Part shown: positions 1 to 28,393 of the stretch, piece by piece
Position numbering within the stretch: position 1 is the first letter of the stretch
How the letters are laid out: every line of letters begins with the position of its first letter
Program-made: the position numbers and the translations under genes
The notes under the pieces: generated by a model
Databases searched by the model: none
What the model was told of the DNA's origin: nothing
The model's input: the letters and a program-made list of their open reading frames with translations, nothing else
IMG/VR virus record: IMGVR_UViG_3300005541_000016
Location: 1-34,027 of that record
Source of the DNA: a virus
Strand: one strand, 5' to 3'
Length of the DNA stretch: 34,027 nt

Positions 1-3000
1 CGGCGTCGGCCCGGTCTTGTCGATCACAATGATGCGCGTCGCGAAGTTCGTTCCGTACTTCTGGTATTCCTTCCCGTTCACGCGAATGTTGGCGCGTACG
101 TTGTAGCGCTGGGCTACCTTCTGGAACCAACGCTCGGAATCGCCGCCGATGAGACTCGCGCCGCCGTTCGCGTCATTCGCCCGGCCGCCGCCCAGGATCG
201 CGACTAACCGCCCGCCGGGGGCTAACCGCTGCAGCGCGCTATCGACGTGGTTGTAGCCGTACTTGTTATTGTTCGCCGCTTCGTGCGATTTGATGGCGCT
301 CGCCGAAAACGGCGGGTTCATCAGGATGACTGTGGGCTTGATCGCCAGATCGAGCAGCGAATTGATGATCTCGCCGTCATGCTGCGTGGCCTGGCCGAAG
401 CCCGCAGCTTCGAGCATGGCAACGCGCCGGTCGGCGATCTCGTTGACGTAGACCTTGGCGCCGATGCCCTTCGCCCACATGGCGAGCCCGCCATTGCCGG
501 CCGAGGGTTCGAGCACGACGTCGGCCGGGGAGAGCGCTGCCGCTTTGGCCGCCACGAAAGCCTCGGTGGGCGGCGTCGAGAACTGCTGATTGTCGATCTG
601 TTCCTGGGTGCGCGTGGCTTGCGAGGGAACCAGCGTCATCAACTGCCGCAAGTGCGCGAGCGCCTGGATGGGTGCCATCGCCATCAACGCGCCGGCGCGG
701 GTCTGCGTCCCGTTTGAGCCGGGCAGTTCCGATAGTAGGAACTTGTTAATGCCCGCTTCCAGTGCGTCGAATGCGTCCTTGGGAGTCCATTCGCCCGAGG
801 TGCGCGAGCCGCCGAAGTACTTTTCAGCGAGTTTGTTGAACTCGGTGACATTGCCGAGCGCTTCGCCGTTGCGGAGCTTCTGATAGACCGCTTCGACGAG
901 CGCGGGCGCTCCCCCTCCCCCGGCCGGGGCGGGGGCGGGGGCGGGGGGCGCTGCGAGGCCTAAGCGCTGGGCGACTTTCGCGGCGATGCGGTGGACCTGG
1001 TTGAGGATGGCGTCGACGGGGAAATTGACCGTTTGGGCGACGTCGTCCAGAATATCGCCCACATCGGCGCGCATCTTCTCGGCCCAAGGCTCGAATTCGA
1101 CGTGGCCCGCGAGCATGTGCTCGGCGCCGATCCTCGCGAGATCGATCAGTGTGTCTTTATCGACCGCGCCAGGCTGCGGCGGTCCCGGCGAGAGCGAGAG
1201 CAGCGGGCCATTGCCTTTCGCTGCGTTGCGCTGGGCGATCTTATCGCGCAGCCGTTTGCGGGCAGCGTCGGCTTCATCGGAGGCCGCGTTACGTGGGGCC
1301 GCGGCGGGAGGCGCGGGCTTCGGAGCGGGCGTGGAGCTGATGTGCTGCGCTACGCCTTTACCCTTTGGCGCTATTCGGAGGTGCGTCTCGCCCCCTCCGG
1401 TTACGAAGCGATCAATAACACCGCGCCGCAGTAACTCCTGCAGCGCACCATGAAGCGTCTCACGGCTGAAGGTTGGATCGTGGAGGAACGCATCGCCGGC
1501 CGCGTCTACATCAGAGAGATGCCCGGGCCTCACCAGGTCAAGGACTCTTTCCTCGGCCTTGTTTCTTTCAGGCGGCCGAGGCGCGGGGGGCTCCGGCGCT
1601 TTCTCGATAGGTACAGCGCGGTACTTGTCTTTGTCGAAGCGCCAGTTGGGCGCCTTGTCGGAGGGCTCGACCTTGTAGTCGTCCATCGCCATCCAACGCG
1701 AGCGCAGTTCCTTCGCGGCGTCGGTCGCTTCCTCTTCGGTAGCGAATACCTGAGCATTCGGCGATGACCACTTATTCTCACCGTGAGCCTTGACGATGAA
1801 GTGGAAGCCGGTTTGCGGCGCTGGCGGCGCGGGCGAGGCCTCCTCTTTCGGCTCGCCCAGGATTGCGTGCAATTGCATCCGGACGGCTTGCATCGCCATC
1901 ACGGAAAGATCCGGCCAGAGTCCATCCTTCCCGTCGCCGTGCGTGCCTGGATTGGGCTTGTTGCCGAGCAGGTAGTCCCTGTAGGCTACGGCGTACATGC
2001 GCTTTTCCGTGTTCTTAATACCGCGGACGTAGTCCTCGCTATGGCGCGCCGTGTTGATGGTGACTTTCGGCGCCGGAGGCGCGGGCGGCGCGGGCTCGCT
2101 GAGGGCTGACGGCTGAGAGCTGATAGCTTCCTTCTCCCCGCTCGCCGCCGCGACGGCCGCGTCGATGAGATCGTCCTCCGACATCCCCGCCGCGCCCGCG
2201 AGATCGAGAACCGGCGCGGGCGCGGGGGTTTCGGGCTCGGCAGCCGCGGGCGCGGGTTTGGTCTGGTTCACGGAACGGCTTACGTCGGCCGCTTTGACCG
2301 CGTGCTCGTGGCCGTCGTCGAACCGGACGAGATAGCTTGTCTTGTCCTTGCCGGCGACTTGGGCGCTGATGCCGATGACTTCGCCATACGCGGCGGGTCC
2401 GCCCGAGTGCAGGTTGACCTGGACGCGATCGCCGACGCGGATGGGGGTGGGGGATTCGGGCTTGTTGACGTCCTGGACATCGCGCGACACCGATCCGGCG
2501 GGATACGTTCGGATTTTCTTGTGAACCAGCACGTCGACGAGCCAGCCGCCGTGATCGGGGCCGTTGTCGTAGACCTGGCGCACTTCACCGCGATCCACCG
2601 CGCCGCCGGGACCGCGCACGTAGACCGTCTCGCCCTTCTGGAAGGTAGGCCGGGCCGGCTCGGCCGTCACCCGCTCCTGCTGAACCGTCATTTCGGTGCC
2701 GTCGTCGTCGAAGCGAACGCGGATGCCGTCGCGCGTCTCGGTATTGGCGAACCGCTTCAGGTTCGTCATGGTGACGACTGCGGGTCGCTGCCTGCCATCG
2801 GGCGCGTCAACGATGACTTTCTGACCGACGTGGACGGGCTCGGGGCCGATTTCGGTGGGATTCTCTGCCAGTTGCCACTCGATTGCGCCCATCAGCGTGT
2901 GCCGGTCCGCGCCCTTCATCTGGTCGTAAGGCGCGACGAGGGTAACGCTCAATCCATCGGGGTTGATGGTCGCGACGGTCGGCCGCGATTCCATGCGGTT

Positions 3001-6000
3001 GTCGTAGAAGCGATTGCCATCGCGGACAGGCGCCGGAACCCCAGGCGGCAGCTTCGCCGGTTGGCTGAGAGCTGACGGACCGGGCGTTTGGCCCGCCTGA
3101 GAGCTGACAGCTTGCAGCTTGTCCCTCTTCGCTTCGAGCGCTTCGAGGTTCTTCTGCAGATACGGCTTTTTGCCGCCCGCCATTTCCCGCTTGATAGCCT
3201 CGATCTGCGCGAGCGTGCGGTCGAGCTCGGCCTGGTCGGGGGCCGGAGCGGGCGCGGGGGGTGGAGCTGCTTCGGGCTCAGCTTCGGGTTCAACTTCGGG
3301 CTCGGCCGGCGCGGGCTCGGCTTCGGCTTCGGACTCCGTCTGGAGCAGATACGGCGCGCGCTCCTTCACTTCATCGAGAATGTTCTGCGGTAGCTGTTGG
3401 CCTTCCTTCAGCGCGCGCTCGACGCGAATTGCCCAGTTGGCGCGCGCCAGCTCCGATTGCCCTTCTGTCCTAACCTTGTTGCGCCAGTTGAGCAGGACAG
3501 CCGCTTGCGATCGCTTGGGGCCGCCCTGGTAGAGGTGCAACTCCTTCGTCATCGCATGGAGTTCTTTACCCGGTAACTCGGCGAGCGAATCGATGGTGGC
3601 CGTCGAGAGGCGTTTGCGGATCTCCCACACGCTGAGCGCCCGCGCGATCACGTCGGCCTTTTTGCCCGTCGTCGCGGCGCCGATGAAGCGCGCGAGCACG
3701 CGCAAGTGCGCCGCGGTGAAACGGTCGAGTGATTCCGGCGTCTCTTCGTCCGGATTGATAGCCAGCACCGAACCCTTTTTGACTTGGGTCGCTTCGGGGA
3801 GTAGTTTGAAATCCTTGTAGGGAAGGATCGGGCTGAGAGCTGACGGACCGGGCGTTTGGCCCGCCTGAGAGCTAGAAGCTGGTGTTACTTCACCGGCAGG
3901 ATGCTCGTTCCCGGCGCCGGTTGACAGTGGCCCTTGAGGAGCATGTCCCGCACCTGCGCCAGTATTCGGTCTTTGCTTTCCGCTGAGAGCTTCTGCTTCG
4001 GCAACAAGATGGGCTCGGACTGCGGTGTAGGCGGCTTGTTTGGTGGCTGCAGCATTTTTACCTTCGGCCAGCGCGGACGCGGCGGCTCCGAGCGCATCGG
4101 AAACCGGACCGGACCGTGCTGACAGCTTATCGTAAATCGCGAGCGCCTGCGCCGCCTGCTCGGCCTGCGCGGCATTCTCTTCCGGCTTAATGACGTTTCC
4201 GGTTCCGGCAAGCTGCTGCGCGGCGCCCGAAGTTCCGACTGTGCCGAATAACCGCTTCTCGGCCCCAAGCTGCTTGCGGATGTAATCGGAGATCTCCGCT
4301 TTCTCGGCTATCAGCGAGCGGGTTACTTCTTCCTCGCCGAACAGACTAACCTGTGTTTCGGTTTTCTTCGGCGCGCCGGCTTCGCCCGTCGAGAGGCGGA
4401 TCATCTCCGCAACTTGATCGTTGGTCGGCCGCTTGCCGCGATCCTCCATCTTTTGGATCACGTCGGCGAGGGCGCGTTGATCGGCGTGCTCGGGCAGGCC
4501 TGCGCCAATCACCGCGCCGCGCGAGGCGCTCAGATCGCCCGAGATCACTTGACTGAATAGGTGCGGATCGAGCTTCGAGAGAGCGAGGCCTTCGCTCGCG
4601 ACCTTGCCGGTGAGCGAGACGCCGCGTTTTTTGAGGTCGGCTTCGGTAAATCCGCCATCGCGAAACAGCTTCGCCGCGTCCGTCGAATCGCCGCGGCCTT
4701 CGGCGATATTGACCATCGCCCCTACGGTTCGCGCTTCTTTCGCATCGGGCGCGTCGATATAGCGCGAGGTGATGTTGGGCGTTCCCGTGCGCTCGGCGAG
4801 CGCGAGGCGGTTGTGGCCGTTGACGATATAGGTTTGCCCATCGGCCGGATCGCGCCACACGAGCACCACGCCGGCCATGTTGGGATCCCAATTCTCGACC
4901 GAGCGCAGCTCGGGGCCCGCGCCGCCCTGGCCGACGTTGGCCTTGAACTGGAAGCGGGAAGGATCGACCTTGATCGAGGAAACGGGGAGATCGACGACGG
5001 AGCCGGGCGCGCCCGGGGCGGGGGTTGCAGACTGTGGCTGTTGCGCGACACTCGCGGGCGCGGGCTGTACAGGATTCTGTACATTCTCAGCGGCTTGCGA
5101 ACTCGCGGGGCGCGCGGGAGGTTGGTTTTGGCTGACGGCTGACGGACCGGGCGTTTGGCCCGCCTGAGGGCTGACAGCTTGTGTAAACGCCTCGACCGAC
5201 ATCGGCGCGGGCGAGGTCATGTGGCCTTCGTGGTTCAGCCATGTGTAGACCTGACCATCGGCTACGCGCTTGACTTCATAGGTGCCGTGCGGGGTTTCAA
5301 ACTTCGCGCCGGCTACCACGGAAGGCGTGGAATCGACGTTAGTCTTTTCGGGCGGAATGGGCGCGTTTTTGTCTATCGGGTTTTCGGGAGCGGCGGGCGG
5401 CGCTTCGGTTGGCGCGGGCGCAGGTGGCGGAGCGGAAGGAGGAGAAGGCGGAGGGGTCGCAGCGGGCGCAGGCTCTTCGGCGGGCGGCTCAGGCGGCGGC
5501 AGCTTCGGCGCGTTTGCCTGCTGGCGAGCAGCTTCGGCGCGCGCTTCGGCGGCGCGGGCTGCTTCCTGCGTATTCAGGTTTTCCTGAAGGATGCGTTGGG
5601 CTGTTGCGAGATTCGCAGCTCCGCCGAATTCGCCCTTAGCGTGAAGTCCCGCCATCGTGGCGAGTACTCCTTCCAGGCCTGCCTGCCCCAGCTTCCCTAC
5701 GGCGCCCATGTAATCGCCGTGCTGGTAGAGGTTCCAAGCCTCCGGAGCCGTTGTCAGCGCCGCGTGGCCAGCCTGTGTGGCAGCGAAGTAAGTCGAGATC
5801 GCGGCATTGATGAGCTTGCCGGCCTGCGCCACCGGAACGTACCGACTCGCTGCGAGCCCGGCCACGCCTTCAACCCCACCCGCGAGCGCTAGATTTTCCA
5901 GTTCTCCCGCTGTGGGTGTCCCCGGCATCACCTCGCCGCCCTGATTCTTGAGGAGCGGCGCGAACGATGAACCCCTGCCGGTCGGCGGCTGCTCGATCGC

Positions 6001-6330
6001 CGCGTTGACTCCCGCGGTCTGTTCTGCCTCCGACTGCATCGCAAGTGGAATCGGCGCCGCGGGCACTCCCGGCAATTTCCCGCCGAGTTTCTCGAGCCCG
6101 CGGATCGGCTCCGCTTCCGGCGCTGCGTCTTCGATGCTGCCTCCGAATTTGCCGATAGACGAGAGATCGAGATCGCGCTTCCCTGGCGAGGGCGTCGCTT
6201 CGAGGGTTCCACCGAACTTCGCGAGAGAACTCAGGTCGAGCTGCGCCTGGTGTTTATCGGCGGACGCATCTATAACGGTCCCGCCGAACTTGCCGATGGT
6301 GTCGAGATTTAACGGCTGTTCGTCCGCCAC
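1..6330 (-). CDS. Giant polyvalent ejection-type protein with ParB-like and N6-adenine methyltransferase domains (C-terminus beyond window)
   Basis: One reading frame stays open for 2110 codons from a GTG at 6330 (3 nt after the preceding TAA) to the left edge. Seen in order: N-terminal tandem motif of the type DLSSIGKFGGT (residues ~8-75); alanine-rich hydrophobic stretch (~145-230); Pro/Ala linker; ParB-like nuclease domain (~445-660) with NGHNR at 504-508; low-complexity linkers; paired SH3/KOW-like segments (~1230-1347); winged-helix-like segment (~1590-1650); then a methyltransferase with QQFSTPP, motif I EPSAGNG (1941-1947) and NPPF (2005-2008). This matches the phage polyvalent proteins in which a ParB-like nuclease and methylase precede a strawberry-notch helicase, and it recalls the P1 DarB antirestriction protein. 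The helicase would lie off the left edge (inference). The position after the ejection proteins suggests it is injected. Four repeat-derived peptides lie in frame at about residues 383-400, 816-834, 1072-1090 and 1400-1411. Confidence 0.85.
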   Translation of the reverse strand, partial: MADEQPLNLDTIGKFGGTVIDASADKHQAQLDLSSLAKFGGTLEATPSPGKRDLDLSSIGKFGGSIEDAAPEAEPIRGLEKLGGKLPGVPAAPIPLAMQSEAEQTAGVNAAIEQPPTGRGSSFAPLLKNQGGEVMPGTPTAGELENLALAGGVEGVAGLAASRYVPVAQAGKLINAAISTYFAATQAGHAALTTAPEAWNLYQHGDYMGAVGKLGQAGLEGVLATMAGLHAKGEFGGAANLATAQRILQENLNTQEAARAAEARAEAARQQANAPKLPPPEPPAEEPAPAATPPPSPPSAPPPAPAPTEAPPAAPENPIDKNAPIPPEKTNVDSTPSVVAGAKFETPHGTYEVKRVADGQVYTWLNHEGHMTSPAPMSVEAFTQAVSPQAGQTPGPSAVSQNQPPARPASSQAAENVQNPVQPAPASVAQQPQSATPAPGAPGSVVDLPVSSIKVDPSRFQFKANVGQGGAGPELRSVENWDPNMAGVVLVWRDPADGQTYIVNGHNRLALAERTGTPNITSRYIDAPDAKEARTVGAMVNIAEGRGDSTDAAKLFRDGGFTEADLKKRGVSLTGKVASEGLALSKLDPHLFSQVISGDLSASRGAVIGAGLPEHADQRALADVIQKMEDRGKRPTNDQVAEMIRLSTGEAGAPKKTETQVSLFGEEEVTRSLIAEKAEISDYIRKQLGAEKRLFGTVGTSGAAQQLAGTGNVIKPEENAAQAEQAAQALAIYDKLSARSGPVSDALGAAASALAEGKNAAATKQAAYTAVRAHLVAEAEALSGKQRPNTGAGAGHAPQGPLSTGAGNEHPAGEVTPASSSQAGQTPGPSALSPILPYKDFKLLPEATQVKKGSVLAINPDEETPESLDRFTAAHLRVLARFIGAATTGKKADVIARALSVWEIRKRLSTATIDSLAELPGKELHAMTKELHLYQGGPKRSQAAVLLNWRNKVRTEGQSELARANWAIRVERALKEGQQLPQNILDEVKERAPYLLQTESEAEAEPAPAEPEVEPEAEPEAAPPPAPAPAPDQAELDRTLAQIEAIKREMAGGKKPYLQKNLEALEAKRDKLQAVSSQAGQTPGPSALSQPAKLPPGVPAPVRDGNRFYDNRMESRPTVATINPDGLSVTLVAPYDQMKGADRHTLMGAIEWQLAENPTEIGPEPVHVGQKVIVDAPDGRQRPAVVTMTNLKRFANTETRDGIRVRFDDDGTEMTVQQERVTAEPARPTFQKGETVYVRGPGGAVDRGEVRQVYDNGPDHGGWLVDVLVHKKIRTYPAGSVSRDVQDVNKPESPTPIRVGDRVQVNLHSGGPAAYGEVIGISAQVAGKDKTSYLVRFDDGHEHAVKAADVSRSVNQTKPAPAAAEPETPAPAPVLDLAGAAGMSEDDLIDAAVAAASGEKEAISSQPSALSEPAPPAPPAPKVTINTARHSEDYVRGIKNTEKRMYAVAYRDYLLGNKPNPGTHGDGKDGLWPDLSVMAMQAVRMQLHAILGEPKEEASPAPPAPQTGFHFIVKAHGENKWSSPNAQVFATEEEATDAAKELRSRWMAMDDYKVEPSDKAPNWRFDKDKYRAVPIEKAPEPPAPRPPERNKAEERVLDLVRPGHLSDVDAAGDAFLHDPTFSRETLHGALQELLRRGVIDRFVTGGGETHLRIAPKGKGVAQHISSTPAPKPAPPAAAPRNAASDEADAARKRLRDKIAQRNAAKGNGPLLSLSPGPPQPGAVDKDTLIDLARIGAEHMLAGHVEFEPWAEKMRADVGDILDDVAQTVNFPVDAILNQVHRIAAKVAQRLGLAAPPAPAPAPAGGGGAPALVEAVYQKLRNGEALGNVTEFNKLAEKYFGGSRTSGEWTPKDAFDALEAGINKFLLSELPGSNGTQTRAGALMAMAPIQALAHLRQLMTLVPSQATRTQEQIDNQQFSTPPTEAFVAAKAAALSPADVVLEPSAGNGGLAMWAKGIGAKVYVNEIADRRVAMLEAAGFGQATQHDGEIINSLLDLAIKPTVILMNPPFSASAIKSHEAANNNKYGYNHVDSALQRLAPGGRLVAILGGGRANDANGGASLIGGDSERWFQKVAQRYNVRANIRVNGKEYQKYGTNFATRIIVIDKTGPTP
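2098..2129. repeat. Heptad repeat inside coding sequence
   Basis: Four GCTGANN units ending AGCTT. Read on the minus strand it encodes AISSQPSALS in frame inside the giant protein. Confidence 0.9.
3063..3113. repeat. Heptad repeat with GGGCGTTTGGCCC hairpin inside coding sequence
   Basis: Heptads flank the perfect stem-loop CGGGC-GTTTG-GCCCG. On the minus strand it encodes AVSSQAGQTPGPSALS in frame. It is nearly identical to the copies at 3831 and 5131. Confidence 0.93.
3831..3880. repeat. Heptad repeat with GGGCGTTTGGCCC hairpin inside coding sequence
   Basis: Same element as at 3063. It encodes SSSQAGQTPGPSALS in frame on the minus strand. The right end has diverged (AGCTAGAAGCT instead of AGCTGACAGCTT). 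Confidence 0.92.
5131..5180. repeat. Heptad repeat with GGGCGTTTGGCCC hairpin inside coding sequence
   Basis: Third copy of the same hairpin-containing element in the giant gene. It encodes AVSPQAGQTPGPSAVS in frame on the minus strand. Confidence 0.93.
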
Positions 6331-6333
6331 TGT

Positions 6334-7983
6334 TTACTTGGTGATGAGAGTGCGCCCTTGCGAGTTGAGCCACGCCTGCGCCTGCCCACGGTCTTTGAAG
6401 TGGGCGACCTTGCCGTTGCCTAAATCGATGCGGACCTCGCCCGTGGACTTTGCTCCGCCTGCAGGCGCGGCTGGCGCTGCCACGGGCGCGGGCTTAGCTG
6501 ATAGCTGAGGGCTGACGGCTGATGGCTGCCCTGCAGGTTTCGGCGCCACGGTCGGCGCGGCGGGGGGCGCGGGCGCGGCTGCCGCGTCGGCGGTGGCTTT
6601 GTGATCGAGGTACAGCACGCCATCCTGCTTGTGCCAGATCGAGCCATCCGGCCCCTTCGTGGTTTCGCCTTCTTTGGTGGCCTTGGTCGTGGCTGGGTCG
6701 GGCGGCTGGACGCCATATAGCTTGGCTTTGCGAACCTGGAGGCTTTGCAGTTGAGCGGTCGCGCCGTCATACCGCGCCTGATAGGGCTTAGTGGCGTCGG
6801 GAATGTCGGGCAGCGCTTGCACCTGTCCGCTCTTGTCGACGAAGGTCTTATTGCTCAGCGTCTCGCCCAACTCGTAGCGCTTCTCGTGGAGCGCCTGCTC
6901 CTGGGCGTCGATCTTGTCGGCTTCGCGCTGATCGAAGCGGCCTTGGACGCCACGCTGGCCGCCGGTCCCGCCCGCTGCTGCCTGCTGCTTGGCGAGTTCG
7001 AGCCGCGCGGCTGCGGTATTGGCCTGCTGACCCATGATGCCGATGCGCGCGTTCTGATACTTGAGCGTATTCTCGCGCAGCGCTTTGGTGTTTTCGTACG
7101 TCGCGCGCTGCTCGCTCGTCATGCCCATCTTGTCGAGGTCGTTCGGATCGAGATCCTCGGAGTATGCGGGCAGGATGCCCCTGATGCTTTCGGGTTGCCG
7201 CGCTACCACGCCGTTGTAAGCGGCTTCTCCCTGCGGGAGCGCGATCCTGAGCGATTGCGCGGCGTTGGCGAGTTGCTTCCGCTCGAGATCGGCGTTCATG
7301 CCCTGCATCTCGGCTTCGCTCTTGGTCTTCTCGGTGTCGGCGCGCGTCGCCTGGGTATCGGCTTCCTGCTGGCGGATATTGTTCTGCCGGAGCTCGTTCG
7401 CTTCCTTGGCGATCTGTTCGCCCGTCCGCAGGCTGGCGATATGCAGCTTGAAAGCGTCGTCGCCCGGATAGACGGGGTGAGCTTGCGCGAAGTTGGCCTC
7501 TTCCGGATCGAACTTTTGCACTTGCGCGAGATACCCGGCCCAGTGCGCGGGATCGTTTTTCTCCTCGTCAGGTAAACCCATATAAGCCTGGGCCTGGCCG
7601 CCGAGGATATTGTGCGATTTTTCCGTGTTTGAAAGCTGTTCGCCTGTGCCCTTCGCTTTCTCTGCAACCAGTTGCGCGCGCTTCATTGCGAAGTCGTTCA
7701 ACATGCCCGGCGCCGCCCCGTATTTCGCGCCAAGTTGCAGCGTCTTGTCCGGATCGCCCTGCGCCTCGACGTACGCGCGCTGCATCGCGGCCTGTGATTG
7801 CATCGCGATCTGCGCCTGCCGGTTGGCCATGTCCTGGGCCTGGATCTGCTCGGCCGTCAACTGCTGGTTCTGCAGCATCGCCTGCGCGGTGAGCCCGTTG
7901 TGTTCGCCCGCCTGGAACGCCTGCGCGAAGTTCTCGTTGTGCGGCGCGTTCACCTGCATGGGAATGCTTCCGTAGCCGCCCAT
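6334..7983 (-). CDS. Internal virion / DNA-ejection protein (P22 gp20-like position)
   Basis: 549 residues. The protein is rich in Gln, Ala and Glu with long helical, coiled-coil-like stretches (residues ~30-390) and no enzyme motif that I recognise. A Pro/Ala linker (~455-510) is followed by a small C-terminal segment reading VRIDLGNGKVAHFKDRGQAQAWL. Part of the linker (PSAVSPQLSA) is encoded by a heptad repeat. The ATG lies 1 nt after the TAA of the upstream gene (TAA-C-ATG) and the next gene starts 3 nt after its stop, so the genes are probably translationally coupled. By position after a gp7-like gene and by composition it resembles the ejection proteins of P22-like phages; direct sequence similarity to gp20 was not tested. 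Confidence 0.75.
   Translation of the reverse strand: MGGYGSIPMQVNAPHNENFAQAFQAGEHNGLTAQAMLQNQQLTAEQIQAQDMANRQAQIAMQSQAAMQRAYVEAQGDPDKTLQLGAKYGAAPGMLNDFAMKRAQLVAEKAKGTGEQLSNTEKSHNILGGQAQAYMGLPDEEKNDPAHWAGYLAQVQKFDPEEANFAQAHPVYPGDDAFKLHIASLRTGEQIAKEANELRQNNIRQQEADTQATRADTEKTKSEAEMQGMNADLERKQLANAAQSLRIALPQGEAAYNGVVARQPESIRGILPAYSEDLDPNDLDKMGMTSEQRATYENTKALRENTLKYQNARIGIMGQQANTAAARLELAKQQAAAGGTGGQRGVQGRFDQREADKIDAQEQALHEKRYELGETLSNKTFVDKSGQVQALPDIPDATKPYQARYDGATAQLQSLQVRKAKLYGVQPPDPATTKATKEGETTKGPDGSIWHKQDGVLYLDHKATADAAAAPAPPAAPTVAPKPAGQPSAVSPQLSAKPAPVAAPAAPAGGAKSTGEVRIDLGNGKVAHFKDRGQAQAWLNSQGRTLITK
6496..6527. repeat. Heptad repeat inside coding sequence
   Basis: AGCTGAT/AGCTGAG/GGCTGAC/GGCTGAT units, read in frame on the minus strand as PSAVSPQLSA near the C-terminus of the 6334-7983 protein. 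Confidence 0.88.
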
Positions 7984-7984
7984 G

Positions 7985-9301
7985 TTAGTAGCCCGCCGGC
8001 GAACTGTAATTCGAATAATTCATGTTGGGGTTGTAGAAGCCGGGGTTGAAGAAGGGGTTGCCGCCGCCTGCTGGCGCGCCCGGCGTCGGCCCCACGCTCG
8101 ACACCACGGGAACGTTGCCATTGGGCGTCATAGGATAGCCCGTGCCTAATGCGCCGCTGCCTTGGGGCACTTGCACCTGAGGACCGAACAGGCTCGGACC
8201 GCTCATGTTGGGCGTCACGCCCGGGCCGGCGTAGGTTCCCGAAACCGATGGATACTGCAACGTCCCATTCGGCAGAGTCGTCGGCATGCCATACCCGCCG
8301 CCGCCGTACCCACCACCTCCAGGCATGCCATACCCGCCGCCGTAGGGATTCAACCCCTGGCTCATGGCGTACTGCTGGCCGGCCACCTGGCCCACGCCGT
8401 TCAACGCGCCCGTCCATGCGTTCGCTGACGCTGCCTGACCTGAAGCCAATCCGCCCTGCCCCTGCATGTAGTAGTTGAGTCCGGCCTGCGTTCCCTGCAA
8501 TCCGAGATTCGCGTTGAATTCGGCTCCGCTCAGGCCCATATTGGCGACCTGGCTCGCCGCGCTCATCGTGTTGCCCGACGCGATGTTGCCGTAATTCTGG
8601 GCGGCCGCATCGGACATGCCGGTCGAAGTCAGTCCGATCCCCGCCATGGTGGAGAGATCCTGGAACTGGTTGTTGCGGTTGGTCTGGAACGATTGCAGCG
8701 CGTTGTTATAAGCGTTCTGGTAATAGGTAGAGGCCAAACCCTGCGAATACTGCGAGAGCGCTTTACCGGTGCCTCCGGAGGCGAGCGAGCCCGAGGCCGC
8801 GGCGCTTCTGGCGATGGCCTGGTTCCCCTGGTCCATCTGGAACTCGAGGCCCGGCGTCGCCATCGCCTGGGCCTCAGTAGGCGCTTGAAATTGAGTAGTG
8901 AGCGAGCCGCCCGGCGCGATCGCGTTCGAGAAGGCGTTGATGCCCGCCTTGCCGGCTGTTAGGTAGGGGTTGAGATTCGCTTGCTCGTTCTGGTTGACGC
9001 CGTAGAGGATATCGTTGGCTTGATTCTTGCCGGCGTCGATGCCCCCCTGGCCGATCTGTGTCGCTCCCGAGACGAAGCCTTGCTGTGTCTTGGTGACATC
9101 CTGGATCTGCTGGTTCGCCGTATTGCCGGCGTTCGCCAGCGTTTTGCCCGCGCTCTTCGCTCCATTCGAGCCGATGAGTCCGCCGATAAGACTGCCGCCG
9201 ATGCCGATGGCCGCCGAGATGGGATCGTAGCGCCGGCGGTCGCGGTCTTGCGGGTAGGGATCGCCGATCGGCCCGAATTCGAGTAGCTGGTTGCGCGTCA
9301 T
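7985..9301 (-). CDS. gp7-like DNA-transfer / ejection protein
   Basis: 438 residues. A short charged N-terminus is followed by a Gly-rich hydrophobic segment (IGIGGSLIGGLIGSNGAK, ~31-48) that could contact membrane. Next come Gln/Asn/Ala-rich helices (~50-300) and a Gly/Tyr/Pro-rich low-complexity tail (GGGYGGGGYG, ~315-438). This layout, with a hydrophobic AIG-GG-N start and a GLxFQMDQGNQAIARSAAASGS-type middle, is common in podovirus internal proteins annotated as DNA transfer proteins. It is the second gene of the minus-strand ejection operon, with 1-nt spacers (TAA-C-ATG) on both sides. It probably enters the host envelope with the 6334-7983 product during genome delivery (inference). Confidence 0.78.
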   Translation of the reverse strand: MTRNQLLEFGPIGDPYPQDRDRRRYDPISAAIGIGGSLIGGLIGSNGAKSAGKTLANAGNTANQQIQDVTKTQQGFVSGATQIGQGGIDAGKNQANDILYGVNQNEQANLNPYLTAGKAGINAFSNAIAPGGSLTTQFQAPTEAQAMATPGLEFQMDQGNQAIARSAAASGSLASGGTGKALSQYSQGLASTYYQNAYNNALQSFQTNRNNQFQDLSTMAGIGLTSTGMSDAAAQNYGNIASGNTMSAASQVANMGLSGAEFNANLGLQGTQAGLNYYMQGQGGLASGQAASANAWTGALNGVGQVAGQQYAMSQGLNPYGGGYGMPGGGGYGGGGYGMPTTLPNGTLQYPSVSGTYAGPGVTPNMSGPSLFGPQVQVPQGSGALGTGYPMTPNGNVPVVSSVGPTPGAPAGGGNPFFNPGFYNPNMNYSNYSSPAGY

Positions 9302-9302
9302 G

Positions 9303-9773
9303 TTAGGGCCTCTCGACGGCGGTGACGATCAGGTCGAAGGGCTTGCCCCGCCGGATGCCGTGGCCGGCCAGCAAGTCTCGCTTCTGAAATCCCGTGGCGA
9401 GCGCGAGCTTGAGAGCGAGGCGGTTGTACGACGGTACCGGCCCGACCAGCGTCCGCAGATTCGTCGCCGTCCAGACCCAGGCGAGAAACCCGAGGACGAT
9501 CCGCTCCGTTCGCCCCCAATGGCTTGGGGCCACGCAGACGTGGACTTCCGCGGCGCCGTCGCCGCGCGGGCAAAGCAGAAACAAAGCGACGGGTGTATCG
9601 GCCGCCCACACCAGTATCCAGAGATCGCTCGGCGAGATCTCGACCTGCAGATCGCCGAGCGCGGGCGCGTCGTCGTTGACCATGCGCCTCCAGCATTTCT
9701 CGTTCGTGAGTAGTGACTGAATCGCGGAAGTATCGTGGGTGAACTCAAAGCGGAAGGCGGGAGAGGGAGACAT
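9303..9773 (-). CDS. GNAT-fold protein, P22 gp14/DUF2824-like position
   Basis: 156 residues. The C-terminal half has the GNAT signature: a VHVCVAPSHWG strand-loop, a hydrophobic helix (LGFLAWVWTAT), then SYNRLALKLALATGFQKRDLL, the usual acetyltransferase end in which Asn-Arg precede a helix and a GF turn. P22-like phages carry a GNAT-like head-assembly protein between the neck genes and the ejection genes, which is where this gene sits. Whether it acetylates anything is unknown; the acyl-CoA pyrophosphate loop is not obvious, so it may be structural. The ATG at 9773 is 24 nt from the start of the divergent 9798 gene. The stop abuts the next ATG (TAA-C-ATG). Confidence 0.7.
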   Translation of the reverse strand: MSPSPAFRFEFTHDTSAIQSLLTNEKCWRRMVNDDAPALGDLQVEISPSDLWILVWAADTPVALFLLCPRGDGAAEVHVCVAPSHWGRTERIVLGFLAWVWTATNLRTLVGPVPSYNRLALKLALATGFQKRDLLAGHGIRRGKPFDLIVTAVERP

Positions 9774-10381: not shown

Positions 10382-10401
10382 GAGCTGATGGCTGATAGCT
10401 T
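10369..10401. repeat. Heptad repeat supplying a stop and a start codon
   Basis: GGCTGACGGCTGAGAGCTGA then TGGCTGATAGCTT. It holds the stop of the 10061 gene and the ATG (10388) of the next MADSF gene. Confidence 0.9.
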
Positions 10402-10846
10402 TTCCCGCCGCTCGTTTCTCGCCGCGTTCGCCGCCGGGCTCGTGCTCGATCCGGAAAGATTGCTCTGGAAGCCGGGAAAGAAGCTAATCTCGATCCCTAA
10501 GCCTTCACTGGATATCAGCGAGCGCGAATGGATCACGGTCCACGAGATTTGGGTGCGCTACCAAGGCCAGGTGCTTTACTACCTCGAGGGCGAGCTTATT
10601 CAGATTTGGCCGGAAGCGTTGGCGCCGGTGTCCTTCGTCGCGCCTAACTTTGACCATCCGTGGGGGCGGCTGGTGGAGCGGGAGGAGGCGCGGAATCGTT
10701 ACTCGGCGGAGCCGGCTGCAGCATCTCCATTGGTATCGGTTGCAGCACCACAGCCAAGGATCGCTTCCGCCGCTTCCCGAAATCCACCATTACGTCCGCG
10801 TCACTCGGAATACTACGTTTCTCCTCGGGCAAGGGAAGGCGCTTGA
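10388..10846 (+). CDS. Small protein with twin-arginine signal, second MADSF paralogue
   Basis: 152 residues. MADSFSRRSFLAAFAAG is a good Tat motif (SRRSFLA). It is followed by ERLLWKPGKKLISIPKP, matching the upstream paralogue, and then a segment rich in aromatics (IWVRYQGQVLYYLEGELIQIWPE). From about residue 92 onward the frame is antisense to the gene at 10644-10931, and the composition becomes Ala/Pro/Arg-rich, so the C-terminal third may be run-on rather than a folded domain. The start codon and the first residues come from the heptad repeat, which also separates it from the 10061 gene by 6 nt. Confidence 0.62.
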   Translation: MADSFSRRSFLAAFAAGLVLDPERLLWKPGKKLISIPKPSLDISEREWITVHEIWVRYQGQVLYYLEGELIQIWPEALAPVSFVAPNFDHPWGRLVEREEARNRYSAEPAAASPLVSVAAPQPRIASAASRNPPLRPRHSEYYVSPRAREGA

Positions 10847-11729: not shown

Positions 11730-13637
11730 TCATTGCCCGAGTGTTGCGTCATATCCTGCTGCTATCAGAGCAATAGGAGCAATGTCGGTTATTGTAATTC
11801 GGAACACCCTACCCTTGAACTTACTTCCACCCAATCGTGGAAACACCAATCGTGCAAACGTCGCATAATCGGTCTTTCGAGGTAAGTGTGTGTTACTCCA
11901 CGTCACCCCGCCATCGTCCGACCAATCCAAGACCGGTTGCAGATTGAGCGAATCCGCGTCCGATCCCGCGGCTACCTGCGCATCGATCCAGAACCGGTGG
12001 AAGAAAATGCGCTGAATGCCTGACGAGATGTACGGGCACGCCCGGATCCGCTTGATGAACGTACTCGCCGGCGACACGGTGGCATCGCTCAGATTGTCGA
12101 GCGACATCGTATACACGTTGCCGTTCTGCCAGTCGCCCACGAAGAGAGTCGGCGGGAGAGGCAGCGACACCGCGCCATGCGGCGCGAGAGCCACGTAGGC
12201 GAGCGACGCGGCGCGATGCCGGTTGAGGTTCACTCCGTCGAACCAGGCGCGCTCGTGCCAGAATCCTGTCGTCGAATCGAACGCCCACGTCGCGTTGGCC
12301 GTGGGGAACGACACCACCCAGGTATGATGGCCCTGCTCGAAATACGAATACGCGACGGCATCTTGGATCACGGCGTACTTGCGCCAGGCGGCTTCGACGG
12401 CGTGCGTCGAGACCCGTGTCGGCTGGAAGCCTCGCGCCCACATGGCGAACGCGCCGCCATGTCCAGCGTCGGCTGCGATCCACATGACGCCGTTATTCAG
12501 CCGTCGAACCGAGCTCGGCGCCTGGCAGCCGTAGTGCATGAACGCCCCGGGCACGCGCTGAAACGGACTCAGCGCCGCGCCGGTATCCTGCCAGATCTCG
12601 GTCGATTCTTCGTCACCGAAGATCCAAAGCTCTTCGTGGTCGGCGAACACACGGGCGATCGCGTCAGGGTAGCCTTCCTTGGCCGCAACGTCGATCGCGT
12701 CCCACTTGGCCCCGCCCAAGGGTAAAAGGTTCGACCAGTAGAAGAGGTTGGTCGATGGCTTCGAGACGATGAAATAGCCGTCGAGAAATGTGCCGGAGAA
12801 TGCAGTGACAGGGCCGAGCGCCTCGCTCGCGAGACCGCCCTTCGAGCCTATCGCGCCTAATGAGCCCGAGCTGGTGAACGCGTTGCCGTATTGGTCGACG
12901 GCGGTGATATTGGTCGATTGGGGCGTGAACCCGGCTCCGCCGTTGATCGTCAGGCTGCGCCCTACATCCGTCTGGTCGAATGGGATGGCTTTGCTCCAGA
13001 CGGTCTGGACGGACCCTTGGGTATAAGCGACGGGGGATACGCTGTTCGGCAGGGAAGCCGCTGTTAACGCCAGGGTATTCTCGTCGTATACATTAGCCAC
13101 GGTGTAGCCCGTGCCGTTGACGGTGATGGCGCCTCCGATCATCCCCGCGTTGAATTTATCGCCCGAGGCCCAGAAGACGAACACGGGGGAGATCGTCGAA
13201 ACCGTGCCCGCGTAGCCGATGGAAAGATCGCTATAGGTAATCGGCGTGAACTGCGCCGCTACCGTGCCAGCGCCGTTGTCGTAATAGAACTGCCCCGCCG
13301 AGATAATGCCCAACTGGGTACCGTTCGCGAGGATCGTAACCGGAAGGCCATCGTTGCCGATATTGCCGCGGTTGAAGGACGTGCCATCGGCGAAGACTTC
13401 GTAGAGGGAAGACCCCGATGCGACGAAAAGCCGGTTCTCGCCGGCGAACATCCCGCGTATGGGGCCGCCGCCTAATGTGATGAAGCCCGCCAGTCCCGGC
13501 GTGCCAAGCAGCGCCCCGATGTTCTTGCCCTTGCCGGACTGGTCTAGCTCCGGAAATAGGTTCATCGACGTTTGAGCGTCGAGCAACAAACTTGAGGCCC
13601 TATAGCTCCCACCAATAAATCCTTCGAGGCTAGGCAT
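11730..13637 (-). CDS. P22 gp10-like tail accessory / packaged-DNA stabilisation protein
   Basis: 635 residues. The N-terminus (GSYRASSLLLDAQTSMNLFPE ... LLGTPGLAGFITLGGGPIRGMF) is typical of the family: a set of parameters entering a multi-bladed beta-structure, with RGMFAGENRLFVASGSSLYEV repeated in style along the chain (WIFGDEESTEIWQDTGA, WIAADAGHGGAFAMWARGF). P22 gp10 has the same start pattern and LSPFQRVPGAFMHYGC-type middle. It forms the neck under gp4 and seals packaged DNA. Its place after the gp4-like genes supports the call. Its ATG is 8 nt from the divergent start at 13646. The stop is followed by structured element B. Confidence 0.88.
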   Translation of the reverse strand: MPSLEGFIGGSYRASSLLLDAQTSMNLFPELDQSGKGKNIGALLGTPGLAGFITLGGGPIRGMFAGENRLFVASGSSLYEVFADGTSFNRGNIGNDGLPVTILANGTQLGIISAGQFYYDNGAGTVAAQFTPITYSDLSIGYAGTVSTISPVFVFWASGDKFNAGMIGGAITVNGTGYTVANVYDENTLALTAASLPNSVSPVAYTQGSVQTVWSKAIPFDQTDVGRSLTINGGAGFTPQSTNITAVDQYGNAFTSSGSLGAIGSKGGLASEALGPVTAFSGTFLDGYFIVSKPSTNLFYWSNLLPLGGAKWDAIDVAAKEGYPDAIARVFADHEELWIFGDEESTEIWQDTGAALSPFQRVPGAFMHYGCQAPSSVRRLNNGVMWIAADAGHGGAFAMWARGFQPTRVSTHAVEAAWRKYAVIQDAVAYSYFEQGHHTWVVSFPTANATWAFDSTTGFWHERAWFDGVNLNRHRAASLAYVALAPHGAVSLPLPPTLFVGDWQNGNVYTMSLDNLSDATVSPASTFIKRIRACPYISSGIQRIFFHRFWIDAQVAAGSDADSLNLQPVLDWSDDGGVTWSNTHLPRKTDYATFARLVFPRLGGSKFKGRVFRITITDIAPIALIAAGYDATLGQ

Positions 13638-14159: not shown

Positions 14160-14191
14160 AGCTGAAAGCTGAAAGCTGAGAGCTGACAGCT
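14160..14191. repeat. Heptad repeat between convergent genes
   Basis: AGCTGAAAGCTGAAAGCTGAGAGCTGACAGCT. The minus-strand gp4-like gene takes its TAG stop from the junction CCC-TAG-CTGTC. Confidence 0.9.
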
Positions 14192-14918
14192 AGGGCTTCG
14201 CGTTATTCTGAATCCCCGCCACCGGCTGTCCAGCCCCTTCCGCCTGCCCTTCCTGCGCCGCGCCGGGATACGGGGGCGCGTTGGTCCCGCGGATCGCCGC
14301 GAGCGCCTGCATCGCGTTCATCGCAAGCTCGGGACTGGCCGTTCGGCCGTACCAGGGCGCGAGCAAGATAGCGAGATTGAGCTGCAGCGCGAGCAGATAG
14401 CCCGGCGCCATGTCGAAATTAGAGTTCGTGGCCAGCAATTGCGGCAGCTTTTCCCATGTCCAGAGAGTGATGTAGCCCTGACTGCCGCCGATGGTATTGG
14501 GCGTAGGCCAGATCTTGAGGGCGCCGGTCGGGTACTCGTCGTCGTACCATAGCAGCTCGACGATGTTGGCGATCCGGTTGATGTCGGTGATTTTGCTGTA
14601 CTCTTCGGCCGACGCGAGGTGCATCGGGAATTGGAACGAAGGGATTCCGGGGGTTTGGTATACGGCCGCCTTGATCGCGACCGGACGCACCACGCCGAGC
14701 GTTCCGCCGGGACCGAGCGTATAGAGGCCGGCGGCCGGCGTCAGCGCATAGAGGTTCGAGGTGATGACGAAGACATTGAGCCGTGTCGTCGACCAGGAAT
14801 CGAGCAGCGCGTTCAACTGCGTAAAGCCCCGCGCTAAATCGTCGGAGTTGATGGTTTCGCCGGGGGCTACTTCGTTCAGCGCTTCAAGCGCGGCTTGGAT
14901 GACATCGGAGGCAAGCAT
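14190..14918 (-). CDS. P22 gp4-like head-closure / tail accessory protein, copy 2
   Basis: 242 residues. The N-terminal helices LASDVIQAALEALNEVAPGETI and LARGFTQLNALLDSWSTTRL match the P22 gp4 family start (helix, gap, then D-x-x-x-x-L-x-x-M/LxxxW). The C-terminal helix (PGYLLALQLNLAILLAPWYGRTASPELAMNAMQAL) matches the gp4 pattern that precedes helix-rich tails. The middle (~65-160) is a longer beta-rich insert that P22 gp4 lacks. It is paralogous to the 15955-16707 gene, sharing M-L-x-S-D-x-I and the LLWxxxYPTGALKIWP/NGLVTLWPIP strand. It probably binds the portal and gp10-like protein. The stop is made by the adjacent heptad repeat. Confidence 0.82.
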   Translation of the reverse strand: MLASDVIQAALEALNEVAPGETINSDDLARGFTQLNALLDSWSTTRLNVFVITSNLYALTPAAGLYTLGPGGTLGVVRPVAIKAAVYQTPGIPSFQFPMHLASAEEYSKITDINRIANIVELLWYDDEYPTGALKIWPTPNTIGGSQGYITLWTWEKLPQLLATNSNFDMAPGYLLALQLNLAILLAPWYGRTASPELAMNAMQALAAIRGTNAPPYPGAAQEGQAEGAGQPVAGIQNNAKP

Positions 14919-14940: not shown

Positions 14941-15032
14941 AAGCTGTTCAGCCGTCAGCCGTCAGCTATCAGCCGTCAGCCTCCGGACGCGCGAAAACGC
15001 GGCTGAAAGCTGAGAGCTGATAGCTGAGAGCT
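14941..15032. repeat. Long palindromic heptad element
   Basis: AAGCT, then TCAGC heptads, a CGCGCGAAAACGCG centre, then GCTGA heptads ending AGCT. The whole element can fold as a long imperfect hairpin. The minus gene at 15031 ends at TAG made by the junction. Confidence 0.9.
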
Positions 15033-15954: not shown

Positions 15955-16707
15955 CTAAGGGTTGTTATACGTATTGGAAATTGGGTTGTATCTTCCGCCT
16001 CGTGATCCGGCTCCGCCCATGTTCGATTGTTCTACTTGCATGTACAGAACCTGCGCATTCATGGTCTTGACTTTCATCAAGGCTCGCGCCGCGTTATCGA
16101 TTGACCAGGCGCTGATCTGGGCCCGCCGTGGATACCGCGCGGCCAGCCTGACCGCCAATCCGTACTCGATGGCTTCCTGGTAAGCAGGCGGCAGATTCAC
16201 CGCCAGCGTCACATTCGCGAAGGACGGCACGCTCGCCCAGGTGTAAATCGCCACTGTTCCGACTTGCGAGGTGTCGGTGGGAATCGGCCATAGGGTAACG
16301 AGGCCGTTCGGCACAGTCCCCTGATAGTGCATCGTGGTCGGAATGGAGGATGTCAGTTCTTTCGGCGTGACCGCGGCCCATTCCTGATCGCTCAAAACGC
16401 GGAAAGGCTCTTCCACATTCGGCAATACCGACGTGAAGATATACCCGGCTCTTTCAATCCGGATCGGCCGCTGCGCGGGCCAGGTTGCGCTTATCGGACC
16501 TATCGAATACACCTGCTGATTGGCGAAGACCGGGAATAGCGAGCGCAGCTCCGCGTAGATGGTGAGCCGCTCGGCCTGCCAGGTATCGGTCATCGAGTTG
16601 AGCACGGCCAGGCCGTCCGAGGTATCGGGATTCGAGGGGCCGCGCTGGGGCGCGAGGAGGATGCCGGCGATGCGGAAGCCCGCGTAGATCAGATCGGAGA
16701 CTAACAT
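15955..16707 (-). CDS. P22 gp4-like head-closure / tail accessory protein, copy 1
   Basis: 250 residues. Start set at the ATG at 16707 (LVSDLIYAGFRIAGILLAP), where the family homology begins, rather than at an upstream start that would run 46 residues into the divergent gene. SDGLAVLNSMTDTWQAERLTIY is the gp4 N-terminal helix pair. A beta-rich middle with IRIERAGYI and VTLWPIPTD follows. The C-terminal helix PPAYQEAIEYGLAVRLAARYP and a Gly/Asn-rich tail close it. It is paralogous to the 14190 gene. Two gp4-like proteins may form two stacked rings, or one may be specialised (inference). Confidence 0.85.
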   Translation of the reverse strand: MLVSDLIYAGFRIAGILLAPQRGPSNPDTSDGLAVLNSMTDTWQAERLTIYAELRSLFPVFANQQVYSIGPISATWPAQRPIRIERAGYIFTSVLPNVEEPFRVLSDQEWAAVTPKELTSSIPTTMHYQGTVPNGLVTLWPIPTDTSQVGTVAIYTWASVPSFANVTLAVNLPPAYQEAIEYGLAVRLAARYPRRAQISAWSIDNAARALMKVKTMNAQVLYMQVEQSNMGGAGSRGGRYNPISNTYNNP

Positions 16708-16743
16708 GGAGGGAGGGGTAAGATGGAGGGAGGGGTAAGATTG
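16708..16743 (+). repeat. 17-bp direct tandem duplication
   Basis: ATGGAGGGAGGGGTAAG occurs twice in a row in the gap between the divergent starts at 16707 and 16748 (the first copy overlaps the start codon). It gives the plus-strand gene a purine-rich, SD-like leader. Confidence 0.85.
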
Positions 16744-16747
16744 GGGA

Positions 16748-18226: not shown

Positions 18227-18280
18227 AAGCTTTCAGCTATCAGCTATCAGGCGGGCCAAACGCCCGATCTTTCAGCTCGC
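18227..18280. repeat. Heptad repeat with GGGCCAAACGCCC hairpin
   Basis: AAAGCT, TCAGC heptads, then GCGGGCCAAACGCCC, the reverse complement of the hairpin found in the three elements inside the giant gene, here intergenic after the tRNA-like sequence. Confidence 0.9.
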
Positions 18281-26110: not shown

Positions 26111-28393
26111 TTATGGCCCCGCCGGCGCGGGCTGATTTGCCTGCATTTCCTGCTCGTGCTGTTGCTGGAGTTGAGCCAACTGAGCCTCATGCTGCTGTTG
26201 CAGTTGTTGCAACTGCTGCTGATGCTGTTGGTCCTGCTGCTGCTGCTGCTGTTCGTGCTGTTGCTGCTGACTCAACGATTGCGCATCCTGCTCGATAGTC
26301 ATCTGGTCATGCAGCAGGTCCGCGCGCAGATTCAGTTGATGCTCGACCCCGCCGTAGTTCAGCTCCGCCAGCTTGTTCATGCTCGCGCTCTTCGACAGCG
26401 CCAGCGCGGCCTCGATCTTCGCCTGATTGGTTTGTGTCGCGATGCGCTCGCGCGATTCCAATTCGAGGATCTTGGCCTTGAGTGTCTGTTCGAGCGCCAT
26501 GCCGGTTGCCATGAGATGCTGGATCACCTGCTGATCCTGGGCAAGTTTCTGTTGGATCTGGGGCGGAATCGGCGGCTGTCCTTCCTGGCCGTCCTGAATA
26601 TCCGGCGGGCGTAAGCGGTCCGCGATCTCATCGCCGCCGGGGATATCGAGAGCCTTCACTACCAAATCCAGGCAGCGCATCATCGGCTGCGGTACGCTCT
26701 GCAGTAATCCTTGCATCGCCTGCGCGCCCTCGGCTCTGCGCGACGCATAGCTCGGGCCGGTGCCGATCGTGACATCGTAGCGGTCCGCGCCGATGTGATC
26801 GCGGCCGATTCTGAATATGGTTTGAACGCCCTTGTCGAGAAACTGGGAGTTGATCTGGACACTGCGCACCGAGCCATCGGGATCGTAGATGGTGAGCGCC
26901 CGCGCCTCGGAGTAAATATGGGGAATCAGGTCGATCTTGATCCGCGCGTCGTGGCGCTTCGAGCGGCGTAGGTTATCGACGTAGTTGTAGTGCGCGTTGT
27001 CGCCTTCGCGCTGTTGGGCGAGGATGGCGCGTCCGGACATCTCGGGGCCGGGCTTGCCGAGATTGGGATCCCACGTCGCTTGCGTCCCTTTGACGTCGTT
27101 GGCGGCATGCGCGATGGCTTCGGTGATACCGACCAGGCCGGGTTGCTCCGAGTTGATGCGCTTCGGCTCGGGAAGTAAATCGCCCGCGAGGTTCTTAACC
27201 TTGTATTCGAGGTAGGCGAGCGATTTTCTATTGGCGTCGGCCCATTTGAATTCATGCCCTTCGATCGAGCCTTCCGCTACCAGCCACTGCGAGATAGGAG
27301 CCAGGCCGATCGACTCAGCTTCCTTACTGCGCATGTAGTCGTACTGAAGGTTGGCGTCCATCGACGCCTCGATCTGGCCGCGCAACTGGCGCTTTTCATC
27401 GACGATGATTTCGCGCCCGAGAATCGGCGTGAACGGGATCCACTTGCCGGGCCAGTCCCACTGCTCCAGGATTTCCGTGCCCGTGAGCAATGCGCCCTTG
27501 ACCTTGCGCCGGTCTACTTTGCGGGTCGCGATGACGTTGACGCCCGGGGGAACTTGATCGAGCGGTACGGCGGATCCGTCCGCGAGCTGCGCGAGCGTGC
27601 CCCGCTCCGTCTCGACCCACCAGTACTCCGCGACACGAATCGACTGTCCGCGAGGGAACCACTGCTGCGGTTTATCGCCGACGCCGGCGAACGCGATGGA
27701 CGTAGCCGCCGCGTTGGGGTACAAATCGCCGAAGGTGTGCTCTTCCAAATCTTCGGTGGCGAACAGATACCGCATGTCCGAGTAGTCGAACTGCTCGCTC
27801 GCCGGATCCGGATAGATCGAGAAAGGATTGGCAACTCTGCGGTCGACGATCTTCTGCAGGAAGCTGTCGTCGTTTTCGTATTCGAAGCTGGTTTTCTTCC
27901 AGCCGCGCCCGATCTTGAGCGCGTGCTCGTAGGCGGTCATCCAACACGTTTGGCCGTCGGAATCCTGCTCGATGTTGCGGAGTAAGCCCTGCAATACTTC
28001 GGCTGTGTCCTTGTCCGCTTTTCCCCCGACCGGGCTAATCTTGGCCTCGGGCGGATTCTGCCGCATGTCGTTGATCGACTGATCGAGCGACGGGCCGATT
28101 AAATCAAAAGTGAGACAGGGCCTGCCTTTGCGCTCGTCCTTTTCGTTGCCCTTCCAGTGCTGTAATCCATCGACGAAGTTGAGCTGCTCGCGGGATTTCT
28201 CTCTCCATCGCGAGTCCCAGGTTTCCGCTCGCTGGAATCGTAAGTGGGCTTCGCGCAGTAAGGCTTTCTCGGGATCTTCTCCTGGGTCCGGTTTGTGCGC
28301 GACGATACGGCTCTCTCGTATAGGTGGGAGGCCTTTACCGATTTGGACATGAGGCGCGCCTGTGGGATCGCCGGTGGGAAGATAGGGAGTCAT
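26111..28393 (-). CDS. P22-like portal protein
   Basis: 760 residues, close to P22 gp1 (725). The N-terminal part (RFQRAETWDSRWREKSREQLNFVDG, RPCLTFDLIGPSLDQSINDMRQNPPEAKI, then KTSFEYENDDSF, IVDRRVANPFSIYPDP, MRYLFATEDLEEHTFGDLYP) is the P22 portal family clip-wing region. The stem follows with FTPILGREIIVDEKRQLRGQI and ATWDPNLGKPGPEMSGRAILAQQREGDNAHYNYVDNLRRS. The last ~110 residues are a Gln-rich helix (QQQQHEQQQQQQ...), which would form a long barrel like the P22 core. The portal is the dodecameric DNA channel and packaging motor dock. Terminase should lie to the right of the window. Confidence 0.93.
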   Translation of the reverse strand: MTPYLPTGDPTGAPHVQIGKGLPPIRESRIVAHKPDPGEDPEKALLREAHLRFQRAETWDSRWREKSREQLNFVDGLQHWKGNEKDERKGRPCLTFDLIGPSLDQSINDMRQNPPEAKISPVGGKADKDTAEVLQGLLRNIEQDSDGQTCWMTAYEHALKIGRGWKKTSFEYENDDSFLQKIVDRRVANPFSIYPDPASEQFDYSDMRYLFATEDLEEHTFGDLYPNAAATSIAFAGVGDKPQQWFPRGQSIRVAEYWWVETERGTLAQLADGSAVPLDQVPPGVNVIATRKVDRRKVKGALLTGTEILEQWDWPGKWIPFTPILGREIIVDEKRQLRGQIEASMDANLQYDYMRSKEAESIGLAPISQWLVAEGSIEGHEFKWADANRKSLAYLEYKVKNLAGDLLPEPKRINSEQPGLVGITEAIAHAANDVKGTQATWDPNLGKPGPEMSGRAILAQQREGDNAHYNYVDNLRRSKRHDARIKIDLIPHIYSEARALTIYDPDGSVRSVQINSQFLDKGVQTIFRIGRDHIGADRYDVTIGTGPSYASRRAEGAQAMQGLLQSVPQPMMRCLDLVVKALDIPGGDEIADRLRPPDIQDGQEGQPPIPPQIQQKLAQDQQVIQHLMATGMALEQTLKAKILELESRERIATQTNQAKIEAALALSKSASMNKLAELNYGGVEHQLNLRADLLHDQMTIEQDAQSLSQQQQHEQQQQQQDQQHQQQLQQLQQQHEAQLAQLQQQHEQEMQANQPAPAGP

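Follow-up and report, generated by a model that had tools for sequence, protein, structure and literature searches.

Gene order around the giant open frame

The window, by which we mean the whole stretch of DNA analysed, is an entire virus record of 34,027 bases. At its left end lies a giant polyvalent protein gene on the minus strand (1..6330), a single stop-free open frame that starts with GTG at 6330 and runs to base 1, where it is cut by the contig edge. The open end coincides with the edge of the record, so that 2110 codons are visible and the 3′ end lies past the edge, in keeping with the original prediction of a protein of at least 2110 residues. Relatives of this protein are up to several thousand residues long.

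Immediately upstream on the same strand is a gp20-like ejection gene encoding 549 aa (6334..7983), which has no family match and was assigned by its position; a relative of it precedes the giant in contig L010 (29%, E 8e-14). It is preceded by a gp7-like ejection gene encoding 438 aa (7985..9301, minus strand; PHROG 598 'DNA ejection', E 6e-15) and a GNAT-like cassette gene (9303..9773, minus strand) with weak GNAT matches in Pfam and PHROG. These four genes are separated by 1–3 nt, and the gp20-like gene stops 3 nt ahead of the giant, which bears out the earlier claim that the giant directly follows gp7/gp20-like ejection genes to which it is coupled. The late genes further include head closure Hc3 (11730..13637, minus strand; PHROG 578, E 3e-83), the major capsid protein (21353-22447), and the true portal gene (26111..28393, minus strand; PHROG 156, E 2e-113). 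The giant thus adjoins late virion genes (gp20-like, gp7-like, GNAT, and Hc3) and carries a ParB core and an adenine methylase in one frame of more than 2110 aa, two features of phage-type polyvalent proteins.

The same order of Hc3, GNAT, ejection genes, and giant is found in JC1, a Bcep22-like podovirus, and the annotations of Parlo, ZX1, Skulduggery, and Y3 show a similar order of GNAT, two to three genes, and giant, with the GNAT gene of all five phages in the same place as in the window. In JC1, the giant gp69 is a DarB-like protein of 4515 aa for which 51 unique peptides were obtained from purified virions, and two other products of that cassette, gp64 and gp68, were also detected in virions (PMC9144972). 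That a podovirus should eject so large a protein, described earlier as notable, is not new, being already known from Bcep22-like phages.

Tandem peptide repeats at the N-terminus

At about residues 6–90 (6061..6315, minus strand), the giant carries tandem peptide tags of the form LxLDxxxxKFGGxx in three clear copies (LNLDTIGKFGGTV, LDLSSLAKFGGTL, and LDLSSIGKFGGSI) and a weak fourth (GLEKLGGKLP). The self-similarity of the N-terminus reaches a z of 8.5 relative to shuffles of the same 100 residues, and the repeats are absent elsewhere in the six-frame translation of the window. Relatives have other repeated peptides at the same place: NDLDxLLADVP (L009 and L023), DLGGGWTVA (L026), IPPGxxVESTP (L013 and L031), DIFDQYA (L024), SDxPxGAQVxHxP (L039), RQYNLNDFN (L070), and VTLDFSKAQP (L016). 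Some motifs recur between relatives, with VTLDFxKAxx found in L016, L041, and L054 and DIFDQxA in L024 and L030.

The frequency of such repeats was compared between two classes of ORFs bearing the ParB core described in the next section. Cassette giants were defined, by a rule set once the first N-termini had been inspected, as core-bearing ORFs with a close same-strand upstream ORF of at least 300 aa. Tandem N-terminal repeats were detected in 18 of 35 cassette giants at z≥3 and in 21 of 35 at z≥2, compared with 1/35 of the other core-bearing ORFs, many of which are portal- or MuF-like by eye and among which L066, L085, and L097 (split, distant, or short upstream ORF) were placed by hand. Interior windows of the same giants (2/289 at z≥3) and other ORFs of the same loci (13/392) served as controls. 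In a hold-out scan of 26 new non-redundant ORFs, for which the rule was fixed beforehand, repeats at z≥2 were found in 6 of 12 cassette giants and 2 of 14 others, a contrast that is borderline between the two classes (p=0.058) and clearer relative to other ORFs (p=0.0007). The two positives in the other class are proteins of 1916 and 3055 aa that miss the rule, their upstream ORFs being 52 and 257 aa long.

The first 30 residues of P1 DarB are a capsid-targeting sequence that is sufficient for the entry of a reporter into the head (PMC9024508). The tags sit at the same place, and they are absent where the core seems to be fused to a portal; a core apparently fused to the portal would not need a tag. 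By this analogy, the N-terminal repeats are candidate loading tags for entry into the virion. No paper describing tandem N-terminal tags was found in a literature search of partial coverage, and a term search of the main text of PMC5512222 returned no mention of them. Should the repeats prove to be loading tags, computation can find them in uncultured phages and so make the question of which proteins are injected testable from sequence.

The repeats could also have arisen by neutral local duplication in a disordered linker, an explanation to which we give considerable weight while still holding it short of probable. Seventeen of the 35 cassette giants fall under z 3, the hold-out contrast is borderline, and P1 DarB, examined as a positive control because its targeting function is proven, shows no tandem repeat at its N-terminus (z −0.9). 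Neutral duplication does not, however, readily account for interior windows of the same giants that are nearly repeat-free, for portal- and MuF-type core-bearing ORFs that lack repeats, or for motifs that are shared between relatives.

A ParB-like core recognized by its fold

The ParB core, residues 436–790 (3961..5025, minus strand), comprises a ParB/Srx nucleotide domain, an HTH domain, and a helical tail, as delineated by alignment, an AlphaFold2 (AF2) model, Foldseek and VIA comparisons, and a match to PHROG 21. The label of PHROG 21, 'portal', was rejected for the giant in spite of an E of 5e-71, because the match covers only the C-terminal third of the profile, some ORFs (L052, L062, L065, and L069) resemble portal and ParB-core fusions by eye, and the true portal gene lies elsewhere in the window. 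The profile contains a ParB core at positions 998–1331, an annotation trap by which stand-alone ParB giants are named portal.

The core has no match to a ParB family in Pfam or NCBIfam, and phmmer and hmmsearch comparisons with PDB sequences gave nothing useful for it or for the methylase, so that a fold comparison was needed. The AF2 model of the core, built from seven sequences, has a pLDDT of 80 and a pTM of 0.72. It matches ParB, Noc, and KorB with a Foldseek E of 2e-5 and VIA Z of 9–11 across the nucleotide and HTH domains, although the placement of the domains differs from that in the solved structures, with an rmsd of about 12 over both domains in the top matches. The DNA-binding domain of Noc alone fits on residues 111–218 of the model with a Z of 6.0 and an rmsd of 3.9. 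The model therefore shows a ParB/Srx nucleotide domain followed by an HTH, the arrangement of the ParB/Noc/KorB fold. The NGHNR motif on which a ParB-like domain had originally been proposed is part of an NGHxR that is invariant in the seven-way alignment, and together with the fold match it upholds that proposal. In common with the ParB/Noc/KorB CTPase clamps, the core has predicted nucleotide and HTH DNA-binding domains; in contrast to them, it is embedded in a giant virion-type protein, and its similarity to them lies below detection by Pfam or PDB-sequence searches. On the fold of the model, a role in DNA binding or CTP binding is predicted.

Alternatively, as has been suggested for DdrB-like ParB domains, the ParB core may attack host DNA or nucleotides as a nuclease or NTPase rather than tether the protein to phage DNA. 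Nuclease and NTPase activities are reported for the ParB/Srx superfamily (PMC5512222), and the invariant NGHxR would suit such an enzyme. Nevertheless, we regard this alternative as rather unlikely, since the model includes the ParB HTH, which points to sequence recognition, and Pfam ddrB-ParB has no match at E≤1 in any of the seven members. By its model, this part of the giant resembles a complete ParB and not a DNase domain of the DdrB type.

What stays constant across the family is residues 447–745, with identities of 75% to L009 and 45–58% to five others. The core was found in 168 viral stretches (80 kept) and in two acidobacterial MAGs (Ca. Sulfotelmatobacter and Acidobacteria bacterium). 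T7-like cyanophages of the P-SCSP1 group and the uncultured phage S31-C1 have it within a large protein after the tail-tube genes, and gp43 of the Salisaeta phage SSIP-1, annotated as structural and named DNA methyltransferase in RefSeq, carries part of the same domain (E 8e-5).

Methylase module and predicted helicase

Behind the core, residues 790–1800 are largely without assigned domains. A tentative SAP-like motif lies at residues 868–899 (3634..3729, minus strand; Pfam SAP, E 3.5e-4, under the curated cut-off), followed by three tentative SH3/Tudor-like blocks at about residues 1230–1415 (2086..2643, minus strand) and a tentative winged-helix-like segment at about residues 1589–1651 (1378..1566, minus strand). 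A single-sequence model of residues 1219–1664 contains, at a low confidence (pLDDT 48), three blocks rich in beta strands and an HHH-EE pattern, and the Pfam matches DUF1918 (E 0.015) and Tudor_3 (E 0.03) are both under the cut-off. The SH3-like and winged-helix segments of the original prediction are thus only suggestive. No metallopeptidase domain was seen in the visible part of the giant.

The visible part of the protein ends with an LPD36-like helical region and a DarB-type adenine-N6 methylase at residues 1812–2110 (1..897, minus strand). The methylase matches PHROG DNA-methyltransferase families with E of 1e-12 to 3e-11, in agreement with its earlier recognition by the EPSAGNG and NPPF motifs, and has a QFSTPP motif ahead of them. 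The LPD36-like region was assigned by motif alone, from a GGS motif before the methylase. An LPD36-like region, a TP motif, and an NPP(Y/F) methylase are the elements of the DarB-like dyad, and all of them are conserved in contig L016. Its identity to the giant is 71% along 301 residues (70.6% when whole proteins are compared), a stretch that covers the region and the methylase and ends exactly where the visible protein ends. BLAST gave no direct match between the methylase of the window and P1 DarB.

Past the methylase, L016 continues with AAA_34 (E 2.1e-86) and Helicase_C_4 (E 1.3e-73), which together make up a Strawberry-notch helicase. The helicase expected beyond the edge has accordingly been located in the nearest methylase relative, and for the phage of the window it stays a prediction. 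L016 has no match to the ParB core, indicating that modules are shuffled in this family; in view of this frequent swapping, a Strawberry-notch helicase just past the contig edge is strongly predicted for the phage itself.

Domains exchanged around the constant core

Complete relatives were gathered by searching first with the whole protein and afterwards with the ParB and the methylase portions of it. The domains preceding the constant ParB core differ between them, and in L016 they replace the core. 2H phosphoesterases were recognized by both HxT motifs in the three that were read (L009, L015, and L016) and by Pfam in L036, L044, L048, L056, and L101. Other domains before the core are histidine phosphatase (L010 and L029), RelA/SpoT (L037 and L101, both below the Pfam cut-off), zeta toxin (L046 and L054), FtsK gamma (L030, weak in L036), and LPD22, a Pfam domain named for polyvalent proteins (L041 and L054). 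RadC (L046) and FtsK gamma (L024) are found behind the core. The pre-core region of the window has no Pfam match.

Some of the 2H domains in these predicted injected giants weakly match the anti-CBASS protein Acb1. The position ahead of the core, where 2H/Acb1-like and other domains are exchanged, may be a place to look for counter-defence enzymes.

Relation to known polyvalent proteins and proposed role

The DarB-type methylase-helicase dyad, its protection in cis, and DdrB-like ParB domains have been described for phage polyvalent proteins by Iyer et al. (PMC5512222). The giant shares with these proteins its very large multidomain build, its place by late virion genes, an LPD36-like region with an adenine methylase, and a ParB domain, and its relatives share with them the SWI2/SNF2-type helicase (in the nearest relative), 2H, RelA/SpoT, and LPD22. 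It differs from them in that its ParB is ParB/Noc-like with an HTH and unmatched by ddrB-ParB, and in the lack of a metallopeptidase in the visible part. The giant is therefore a new member of the polyvalent class that has a variant ParB core and a tag feature noticed here for the first time in this analysis. P1 DarB (251 kDa, PMC9024508) is likewise a methylase and helicase giant, with its targeting sequence at the N-terminus, but it has no match to the ParB core. The methylase of Parlo is related to that of the window (E 2e-12), whereas the giants of Parlo and ZX1 have, by eye, a lytic-transglycosylase-like start where the window has tag repeats, and no ParB core of this kind was matched in the DarB-like giants of JC1 and the Parlo type.

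We propose, as the probable reading, that the giant is a phage-type polyvalent protein that takes the position of P22 gp16 as a podovirus's third ejection protein, being loaded by its tags, injected, and tethered by its ParB core so that a methylase-helicase protects the DNA. The N-terminal tag repeats would bring copies of the giant into the procapsid; these would leave with the DNA by way of the tail and go to work in the cell without delay. There the ParB core, with its nucleotide domain and HTH, would keep the giant on the incoming DNA, while the LPD36-methylase and the expected Strawberry-notch motor would travel along it and methylate adenines ahead of restriction, as proposed for P1 DarB. 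Everything found fits the original prediction of an ejected polyvalent ParB and methylase protein, possibly antirestrictive, with a helicase past the edge. Injected giants are how some phages beat defences before any phage gene is read, and a ParB core would account for the action in cis of DarB-type protection.

That the giant is mainly structural, part of a conduit for DNA ejection like P22 gp16 or T7 gp16 with enzyme domains as secondary or decayed passengers, would suit its third ejection-gene position, the core-bearing large proteins after the tail-tube genes of T7-like cyanophages, and the core being the sole part kept in most relatives, but we consider it improbable because the methylase has intact motifs and shows 71% conservation to L016, the 2H relatives retain both HxT motifs, and the swapped domains are enzymes and not structural.

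Beyond the proposal of an injected, ParB-tethered methylase-helicase, podoviruses might in general load giant multi-enzyme proteins via lineage-specific tandem N-terminal address peptides, with varied payloads and a constant ParB clamp on their own DNA, a broader idea that we advance tentatively. If true, it would amount to a modular protein-delivery system with methylase-helicase, 2H/Acb1-like anti-CBASS-type phosphoesterase, RelA/SpoT, and zeta payloads.

Heptad arrays and the host

The window is rich in heptad arrays of the form (GCTGANN)n, with 55 three-unit matches compared with 0.00 expected. In the class of Ca. Sulfotelmatobacter, four-unit arrays occur in 18/61 sampled genomes, with up to 122 in 5.9 Mb, and a reversed-pattern control is near zero. 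On these indirect grounds, the host is likely a member of the Acidobacteriota, because both genome matches of the ParB core are acidobacterial MAGs and heptad arrays are common in the sampled genomes of the class of Ca. Sulfotelmatobacter. No arrays were found among the phage relatives examined for them. The viral contig IMGVR_UViG_3300045936_000120 (34160 bp; L147 and L191) has the same arrays at high density, with 32 four-unit matches in two stretches, although none of its proteins matched the window in the parts compared.

In the window, 33 arrays of (GCTGANN)2-5 are spread over 2098-33622, often as inverted pairs, at nearly every gene joint (for example 14948-15028, 21263-21345, and 33020-33097). 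The 27 four-unit matches in 34 kb compare with at most 122 in the 5.9 Mb acidobacterial genome, a density about 40 times lower in acidobacteria. Most of the arrays (28/33) lie outside a gene set covering 66% of the window, and several end 2–8 nt past a stop codon. The arrays are possibly terminators or recombination joints; the terminator scan allows loops of up to 8 only, so that long heptad hairpins are not scored by it.

Copies at 3061-3114, 3829-3882, 5128-5181 (with a further, inverted copy at 18234-18278), 2098-2124, and 6497-6523 are in frame and fall in linkers of the giant and gp20-like genes, on either side of the ParB core. The linker peptide SSQAGQTPGPSALS or a close form of it occurs three times in one frame, with DNA 89–94% identical. 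We take the in-frame copies to be repeats at the DNA level that the proteins tolerate as linkers where domains join.

Other genes in the window

A small gene on the opposite strand (10388-10846, plus strand) has a twin-arginine-like start (SFSRRSFLAAFAAG) and, over a short stretch, an 81% match to the gene that L010/L011 carry there, likewise on the opposite strand. Two genes of one late region (14190-14918 and 15955-16845, minus strand) both match PHROG 12985 (E about 1e-31 each), an apparent duplication. The major capsid gene adjoins an HNH/endonuclease VII-like gene (22508-23302, minus strand) whose start is internally duplicated (KTCRVCEQEK / KTCRVCGQEK). A 230-aa protein encoded at 32314-33006 (minus strand) carries a GroES-like domain at its C-terminal end (PHROG 3188, E 7e-16).
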